The notes under the pieces: generated by a model | Seen by the model: the letters and a program-made list of their open reading frames with translations, nothing else | What the model was told of the DNA's origin: nothing | Databases searched by the model: none | Assembly: GCA_030643545.1 (NCBI GenBank) | Contig: DAOWLE010000032.1 | Coordinates: forward strand, 1-40,006 | DNA length: 40,006 nt | Origin: a bacterium | GTDB taxonomy: Bacteria > Patescibacteriota > Minisyncoccia > JAHIHE01 > DAOWLE01 | Direction of reading: 5' to 3' | In this document: positions 13,271-32,861 of the stretch, in pieces | How positions within the stretch are numbered: the first letter of the stretch is position 1 | Layout of the letters: every line of letters begins with the position of its first letter | Position numbers and translations under genes: made by a program

Positions 13271-13383
13271 GTTGACCCAGCTCTAGATTTTAAGTAAATA
13301 TAACGAAAAAGGAAAGCCAAAATTAAATTAGGATGATCAAACTATAAATAGATAATTTTTCTAAAATCTGGGGCTGGGTTGAC
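13271..13383. mobile_element. MITE-like element, copy 1 (101-bp core, TIR CCAGCYCYAGATTTTA, direct GTTGAC flanks)
   Basis: Core 13277-13377; GTTGAC at 13271-13276 and 13378-13383; homologous in the same orientation to 32756-32855. Confidence 0.7.
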
Positions 13384-13407
13384 ACCTTTCCATAAAAGTA
13401 TTATTAT
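13379..13407 (+). promoter_or_regulatory. promoter TTGACA-N17-TATTAT at the element's right tip, reading to secE
   Basis: -35 at 13379-13384, -10 at 13402-13407. Confidence 0.6.
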
Positions 13408-13476: not shown

Positions 13477-13668
13477 ATGAACATCATCAAAAAAATAATT
13501 ACTTTCTTAAAAGATGTCAGATTAGAACTGAAAAAAGTTACCTGGCCGACAAAACAAGAAGCGACAAAACATACAATCACCGTAATTGCCGTCAGCATCA
13601 TCGCCGCCGCTTTCCTCGGAGGAATAGATTTTTTATTTAATTATTTAATTGATAAATTTATTATCTAA
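13477..13668 (+). CDS. secE: preprotein translocase subunit SecE
   Basis: FLKDVRLELKKVTWPTKQEATKHTITVIAV and a C-terminal TM; upstream of nusG. Confidence 0.95.
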   Translation: MNIIKKIITFLKDVRLELKKVTWPTKQEATKHTITVIAVSIIAAAFLGGIDFLFNYLIDKFII

Positions 13669-13732: not shown

Positions 13733-14134
13733 ATGCAGCAAAAATTAAAAACGCAAATAGATTATTGGAAAAAATCAGCTCAAAGGGATTTAGACACAGC
13801 CCAAGTTTTATTTAAAAACAAACGTTATGATTCCTGTCTTTTCTTTTGTCATTTATCGTTAGAAAAATTGTTAAAAGGATTAGTGGTAAAACAAACTAAA
13901 AAAGCGGTTCCGTATATTCATCATTTAGAAAAATTAACAATTTTAGCAGAATTAACATTAACAGAAGAACAAATAAAAAATTTAAGAGTTATTACTGATT
14001 TTAATATTGCTGGACGTTATGATAAATTTAAATTTGCTTTTTATGAAAAATGCACAAAAGAATATACAGAAAAATATTTTGATATTACTAAAAAATTATT
14101 TCCATGGTTAGAAAAAAAATACCAAAAAAATTAG
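13733..14134 (+). CDS. HEPN-domain protein (putative toxin partner)
   Basis: YWKKSAQRDLDTAQVLFKNKRYDSCLFFCHLSLEKLLKGLVV; overlaps the MNT gene by 31 nt. Confidence 0.88.
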   Translation: MQQKLKTQIDYWKKSAQRDLDTAQVLFKNKRYDSCLFFCHLSLEKLLKGLVVKQTKKAVPYIHHLEKLTILAELTLTEEQIKNLRVITDFNIAGRYDKFKFAFYEKCTKEYTEKYFDITKKLFPWLEKKYQKN

Positions 14135-14433
14135 AAGAAAAAATTCAAGAATATATTGAAGTTTTAGAAAAAGATAAATTACCTATTAAAAAAGTGATAC
14201 TTTTTGGCTCTTACGCCAAAGGCACTCAACACAAATGGAGCGATGTTGATTTGTGTATTATCTCGCCAAAATTTAAAAATGCTTTTGACGCACTGCATTA
14301 TTTGTCATTAAAAACAATTTTCGATATGAAATATACCATTGAACCGATTGGATTTAGTCCGAGGGATTTTCAAGATAAATACAGTTCGCTTATTCAGGAA
14401 ATAAAAACAACCGGAATTGAAATAGATGTTTGA
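14104..14433 (+). CDS. MNT-type minimal nucleotidyltransferase (putative antitoxin partner)
   Basis: KKVILFGSYAKGTQHKWSDVDLCIISPKF. Confidence 0.9.
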   Translation: MVRKKIPKKLEEKIQEYIEVLEKDKLPIKKVILFGSYAKGTQHKWSDVDLCIISPKFKNAFDALHYLSLKTIFDMKYTIEPIGFSPRDFQDKYSSLIQEIKTTGIEIDV

Positions 14434-32381: not shown

Positions 32382-32594
32382 TTATTTAAATCTCCTCACA
32401 ATTCTTCCTTTTGTTAAATCATAAGGACTGATTTCAACTAAAACTTTATCACCAGGTAAAATACGGATGTAATTCATCCGCATTCGTCCGGAAATATGGG
32501 CTAAAATTTCTTGCCCGGTTTCCAAAGAAACTTTAAAAGTCGTGTTAGGCAAAGTTTCTAAAACTGTTCCATTAAGCTGAACTAATTCTTTCAT
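32382..32594 (-). CDS. infA: translation initiation factor IF-1
   Basis: [64 protein letters not shown]. Confidence 0.97.
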
Positions 32595-32725: not shown

Positions 32726-32754
32726 ATCTTACCAAAGTTAATATTATTTGTCAA
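32726..32754 (-). promoter_or_regulatory. promoter TTGACA-N17-TAAGAT at the element tip, reading to infA
   Basis: -35 at 32749-32754, -10 at 32726-32731, minus strand. Confidence 0.5.
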
Positions 32755-32861
32755 CCCAGCCCCAAATTTCAAGCAAATATAACAAAAAAGGGAAGCTGAA
32801 ATTAAATTAGGACAGCCAAATTATAATAGATAGTTTTTTTAAAATCTGGAGCTGGATCAAC
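32750..32861. mobile_element. MITE-like element, copy 2 (100-bp core)
   Basis: Core 32756-32855; flanks GTCAAC and ATCAAC; homologous to 13277-13377. Confidence 0.7.

Follow-up and report, generated by a model that had tools for sequence, protein, structure and literature searches.

The sequence upstream of infA in the window (the whole stretch of 40,006 nucleotides that was analysed, from a Patescibacteria genome) is probably a non-autonomous, MITE-like element of a GIY-YIG nuclease family that was inserted at TTGAC and moved in trans by the nuclease. An element of this kind, ~101 bp long and bounded by ~15-bp terminal inverted repeats (CCAGCYCCAGATTTT), would insert into the TTGAC core of the sigma-70 -35 box, in either of the two orientations, and would be flanked on both sides by a target copy of ~5 bp. 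On the promoter side, this copy would retain TTGACA at its original distance from the -10 box. With TTGACA kept at the old spacing, the DNA upstream of the -35 box would be displaced and the promoter would not be destroyed.

The first-pass annotation had described the infA sequence as a second copy of an element located upstream of secE, and blastn confirmed this with 82.5% identity over 103 bp (E = 7e-25). When 13271-13384 was aligned with 32749-32861, the whole element matched, so that the similarity is not confined to the arms; the local score was 68.5, compared to a maximum of 30.0 among 500 shuffles. The cores of the two copies are oriented alike. In copy 2, the span from CCAGC to GCTGG covers 32756-32855, and the flanks are GTCAAC (32750-32755) and ATCAAC (32856-32861), as had been claimed. 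The proposed minus-strand promoter, TTGACA (32754-32749)-N17-TAAGAT (32731-32726), is directed toward infA, whose identity as IF-1 was verified by Pfam. The secE copy abuts TTGACA (13379-13384)-N17-TATTAT (13402-13407) with its other end, so opposite element ends do adjoin the two -35 boxes. No Rfam family matches either window copy, and a known RNA element was ruled out on this basis. The coordinates are listed in Table 1.

Table 1. Positions in the window of the two MITE-like copies and of the adjoining promoters and genes.
Feature	Position	Strand	Support
MITE-like element copy 2 (infA)	32755..32855	- (orientation of abutted promoter)	82.5% identity to copy 1; six genomic copies
Terminal inverted repeat, far end of copy 2	32841..32855	.	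AAAATCTGGAGCTGG on +
Terminal inverted repeat, promoter-side end of copy 2	32756..32770	.	CCAGCCCCAAATTTC on +
Promoter-side target copy TTGAC, within -35 box (copy 2)	32750..32754	-	sequence
Far-side target copy TTGAT, 1 mismatch (copy 2)	32856..32860	-	sequence
infA promoter -35 box TTGACA	32749..32754	-	same box, element-free, in 13 order relatives
infA promoter -10 box TAAGAT, 17 bp from -35	32726..32731	-	
infA (IF-1), 70 aa, first downstream gene	32382..32594	-	Pfam PF01176, E = 8.5e-27
MITE-like element copy 1 (secE)	13277..13378	+	alignment to copy 2; six genomic copies
Far-side target copy TTGAC of copy 1, identical to promoter-side one	13272..13276	+	
secE promoter -35 box TTGACA; bases 1-5 form the promoter-side target copy	13379..13384	+	
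secE promoter -10 box TATTAT	13402..13407	+	
secE, first gene downstream of copy 1	13480..13668	+	Pfam PF00584, E = 1.2e-21

Just downstream of secE, the window carries an ORF with a HEPN domain (13733-14433; Pfam E = 1.6e-20). It is overlapped by an ORF at 14104-14433 that matches PADLOC candidate models weakly, and together the two look like a HEPN-nucleotidyltransferase toxin-antitoxin-like pair.

Six full copies of the element were found in the source genome (845 kb, 45 contigs). The four outside the window, one each on contigs C32, C13, C43 and C14, have the same layout as the window copies. All six carry inverted repeats close to the sequence given above, and TTGACA lies directly outside one end, with a -10 box (4-6 of 6 positions matching) 16-17 bp onward. 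The genes downstream are secE, infA, groES-groEL, dCTP deaminase and two of unknown function. It is the core-right end that faces TTGACA in three copies and the core-left end in the other three. Terminal inverted repeats, the lack of a gene, a length of ~101 bp and several dispersed copies in one genome are features of a MITE. As far as sequence alone can establish it, the repeats, the six copies, the insertion in either orientation and the direct repeats are directly documented. The putative target site duplication is identical in the secE copy and has one or two mismatches in the other five. On the promoter side the copy is always TTGAC, and the opposite flank is TTGAC once, TTGAT four times and TTAAT once, whichever element end faces the promoter. 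This difference between the two sides is not predicted by plain duplication and stands as a counterpoint to our reading. An integron attC site was rejected, the TTGACA context being incompatible with the GTTRRRY core.

ISDra2 inserts 3′ of TTGAT and has TTGAC as its right cleavage site. A single-strand element of the IS200/IS605 type is thus suggested by TTGAT on the left and TTGAC on the right in four of the six copies, and the hairpin-forming ends are a further likeness to IS200/IS605 elements and REP sequences. In that family, however, the end sequence follows the orientation of the element, whereas the asymmetry observed here follows the promoter (3:3). The present element has ends that form an inverted-repeat pair, the duplications of related elements elsewhere are TTTAC, TAAAC, CTTGC or ATGAA, and no match to the Y1 transposase (Y1_Tnp, PF01797) was obtained in the source genome or in genome G043. 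On the grounds of orientation and the absent Y1_Tnp, this origin was rejected; it seems extremely unlikely.

The region upstream of infA was compared in 17 relatives from the same order and in three other relatives from the class. Thirteen of the order relatives have an infA promoter of the form TTGACA-N17-TAAACT, -TAGACT or -TACACT, the surroundings of which are conserved, and no repeat-like sequence was found near the promoter in those 13. In the source genome, the promoter (TTGACA-N17-TAAGAT) is located at -160. That these promoters are element-free can be read from the sequences themselves; the site is not defined base for base, the comparison being made at the level of the order with no genome of the same family or genus included. 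Because order relatives have the promoter without the element, the element must have entered an existing promoter, at its -35 box. The first-pass annotation had favoured target choice over a fixed internal promoter, and this is supported by the element-free promoters, by the 3:3 orientation and by the position of the -10 box outside the element. The second TTGA(C/T)-like copy at the far end fits a target duplication of ~5 bp.

The same observations bear on a mobile promoter, in which the end of the element itself would provide an outward -35 box. TTGACA is indeed always found directly outside a GCTGGG end, but either end does so, copies elsewhere have other flanking sequences, and the complete promoter is present in relatives that lack the element. 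For this last reason a mobile or internal promoter was rejected, and the idea appears barely tenable. It is also conceivable that the sequence is a fixed, non-mobile regulatory element or operator that was spread by selection upstream of the -35 boxes of growth operons, given that secE, infA and groES-groEL are growth genes and that every copy in the source genome adjoins a -35 box. We regard this as very unlikely: the core is long and asymmetric and occurs in both orientations relative to the promoter, dCTP deaminase and genes of unknown function are among the six, relatives have the same infA promoter without it, and other copies are located in 16S rRNA, RNase P RNA and pilin genes.

With TTGAC taken as the target of the MITE-like element, the preference may concern this sequence and not promoters as such; the targets duplicated by related elements elsewhere are different ones, as given above. 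A sample of 57 kb of the source genome contains 16 other non-coding TTGAC sites, six of them with a -10 box at 16-18 bp, so that the chance of finding six of six copies at promoters is 0.375^6 = 0.003. A preference for non-coding TTGAC explains most of the promoter bias. The remainder may be due to selection, the restored -35 box making an insertion tolerable.

A blastn search with the sequence of copy 1 in 54 relatives gave only short partial matches, and a one-sided search for the repeat in 286 genomes gave mostly single matches that are probably due to chance. When repeat pairs at a spacing of 62-92 bp were searched for in one genome per species (84,980 species), 27 stretches were obtained, nearly all from Patescibacteria. 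In these gene-less relatives the repeats are constant and the cores unrelated, at lengths of 91-106 bp; one of 113 bp includes masked bases. Perfect 5-bp direct repeats flank 5 of 29 copies outside the source genome, compared to 0.96 expected (p = 0.0008). They are TTGAC, TTTAC (twice), TAAAC and CTTGC; the two TTTAC copies belong to paralogous pilin genes and hence are not independent. An independent copy in Vogelbacteria (L126) has TTGAC on both sides and lies at a promoter with the sequence TTGACA-N17-TATACT. Other gene-less copies are found inside 16S rRNA (L114, L133), in or adjoining RNase P RNA (L115, L116, L125, L127 and others) and close to 23S rRNA genes that contain group I introns. 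No viral, phage or plasmid relatives were found, and a reservoir of that kind was dropped from consideration.

Three observations were made beside this survey. In a Doudnabacteria locus (L121, 1099-4003), three gene-less copies with TTTAC on both sides are located at the starts of pilin-like genes, whose reading frame appears to begin within the element (...KTGAGFTLIELLVV). Genome G043 contains many perfect hairpins of 27-37 bp (CCCAGCYCCAATT...AATTGGGGCTGGG; for example in L091, L094, L097 and L098) that have the same end sequence as the elements and lack the interior. At L116:1641-1816, a T-box leader match remained below threshold (40.7 bits, gathering 93).

Elements of ~300 bp with the same repeats carry a single ORF of 85-87 aa that encodes a GIY-YIG nuclease. 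Examples are intergenic (G043:C8:2788-3090) or located in RNase P RNA (L140) and 23S rRNA (L137). The catalytic domain is supported by Pfam (E = 1.1e-18 to 2e-15), and Y16, G18, R26 and E63 are invariant among five nuclease sequences. The closest solved relatives by sequence are the UPF0213 proteins 1ywl (EF2693) and 1zg2 (BH0048). A profile of the five proteins has matches in 129 of 286 genomes of the class at E <= 1e-20. In 72 of 92 GIY-YIG loci examined, near-perfect inverted repeats surround the gene (score >= 14; shuffles reach at most 12), whereas a control set of 115 further small ORFs from these loci yielded no such case. The location of the nuclease gene between matching repeats is thus observed, not inferred. 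The 72 elements span 273-411 bp with a median of 298, and direct repeats of at least 5 bp are found at the boundaries of 24 of them, compared to 4.3 expected; none of 2000 re-pairings reached this number. Gene-less and nuclease elements with common repeats occur together in G043 and likewise in L140. In the GIY-YIG element of the source genome, the repeats (CCCAGCCCTTTTGGCATTAT) agree with those of the gene-less copies over no more than the first 8 bases, CCCAGCCC. The assembly therefore lacks the exact autonomous partner, which counts against our reading. A different GIY-YIG gene on contig C43 of that genome (3947-4174, L166) has TGTCATTCCTGCGAAGGCAGGAATCC-type repeats spanning ~443 bp and possibly represents a second, separate nuclease-repeat family.

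Inverted repeats with duplications of ~5 bp are typical of DDE elements. The sequences could therefore be classical MITEs that are moved by an unseen DDE transposase, the GIY-YIG genes being passengers that use the same ends; direct repeats of 5 bp are seen in gene-less and nuclease elements alike. However, elements of ~300 bp are too short for another gene, and with 72 of the 92 GIY-YIG genes between repeats, the repeat sequences vary while the nuclease stays. No repeat pair at the distance of a transposase gene was noted in the loci examined, which do not cover whole genomes. We consider such a transposase unlikely.

The nuclease elements are located at several kinds of functional sites. By a simple blastn test, 16 of the 72 are in rRNA genes, and RNase P RNA also hosts some. 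Duplications of 8-9 bp are found at the 5′ ends of tRNAs in L203, L238, L246 and L255; these and L201, L223 and L233 have a nuclease element at a tRNA 5′ end, and several repeat the tRNA start. In eight loci, the terminal AT of the element and the G of the target form the ATG of an ORF of at least 167 aa. Elements ending in ...GGGAT directly 5′ of the G of a gene were seen in L217, L225, L227, L234, L243, L265, L269 and L278. TTGAC sites followed by a -10 box also occur, with TATAAT at 16 bp in L208 and weaker boxes in L259, L215, L222 and L236. On contig C44 of the source genome (L161/L190), a 314-bp GIY-YIG element occupies the loop before AGGAAGGCGGGGATGACG in the 16S rRNA gene. Three states were seen at this position: the 13-bp native loop (L133), the 314-bp nuclease element (source genome) and a 102-bp gene-less element (L114). 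Gene-less and nuclease elements thus occupy one 16S site in different lineages. In rRNA insertions, the native loop is replaced and not duplicated, another weak point of our reading.

A mechanism that would connect these observations starts from full-length members of the Patescibacteria-wide family, which we take to be ~300-bp units with one single-domain GIY-YIG nuclease gene directly between the inverted repeats. The nuclease most likely makes a staggered cut in the target and perhaps also nicks or frees the ends of the element. Host repair would finish the insertion, fill-in yielding the repeats of ~5 bp, and gene-less copies would be mobilised in trans. The role of the nuclease as mobiliser, the geometry of the cut, the movement in trans and a near-neutral effect on transcription are inferences without activity data.

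Among known systems, MITEs of bacterial insertion sequences are similar in being short and gene-less, with terminal inverted repeats, short direct repeats and several copies per genome in both orientations. They differ in that the gene-bearing partner here encodes a GIY-YIG nuclease instead of a transposase and that insertion occurs at functional signals (-35 boxes, start codons, tRNA 5′ ends and RNA hairpins). Free-standing GIY-YIG homing endonuclease genes are similar in that the mobile unit carries no gene besides that of the nuclease. The present elements, on the other hand, are bounded by inverted repeats, have direct repeats and gene-less derivatives, and do not meet the homing criterion of one cognate site shared by alleles, as rRNA, RNase P, tRNA, start codons and TTGAC are unrelated sites. 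Intervening sequences (IVS) of rRNA are also inserts of ~100 bp closed by a stem in rRNA hairpins, whereas the same repeat family is found here upstream of promoters as well; the window copies are intergenic and do not meet the criterion of an rRNA location. For CPR bacteria, rRNA insertions with GIY-YIG ORFs have been described (Tsurumaki et al. 2024, PMC11270868), and these ORFs resemble the present elements in nuclease family, host group and location in rRNA stem-loops. The main text of that paper says nothing about inverted repeats, palindromes, RNase P or intergenic copies, and the promoter, tRNA and start-codon sites as well as the gene-less forms appear to be new relative to it. A literature search for GIY-YIG together with MITEs, palindromes, REPs or target duplication returned nothing relevant; subscription papers and preprints were outside the search, and an earlier description is not excluded. 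Apparently, this widespread family of miniature elements, whose sole gene is a small nuclease, has not been described.

Whether these elements constitute a new minimal class of transposon, we judge to be evenly balanced. Such a class would consist of ~300-bp units with inverted repeats and a GIY-YIG nuclease as the only mobility protein, together with gene-less derivatives. Its insertion sites would be signals indispensable to the cell (-35 boxes, start codons, tRNA 5′ ends, rRNA and RNase P hairpins), the signal being rebuilt by target duplication or hairpin replacement. If it is true that a lone GIY-YIG nuclease moves inverted-repeat DNA with target duplication, this would be mobility without a transposase. 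The lack of resemblance to homing that earlier authors saw in the GIY-YIG ORFs of CPR rRNA insertions may be explained in this way too. At infA, the sequence that lay upstream of the -35 box has been displaced by ~100 bp, and this displacement may retune an operon central to translation. In the very small and dense genomes of Patescibacteria, the persistence of mobile DNA would be explained by an element that leaves promoter boxes, start codons and RNA hairpins usable after landing on them.
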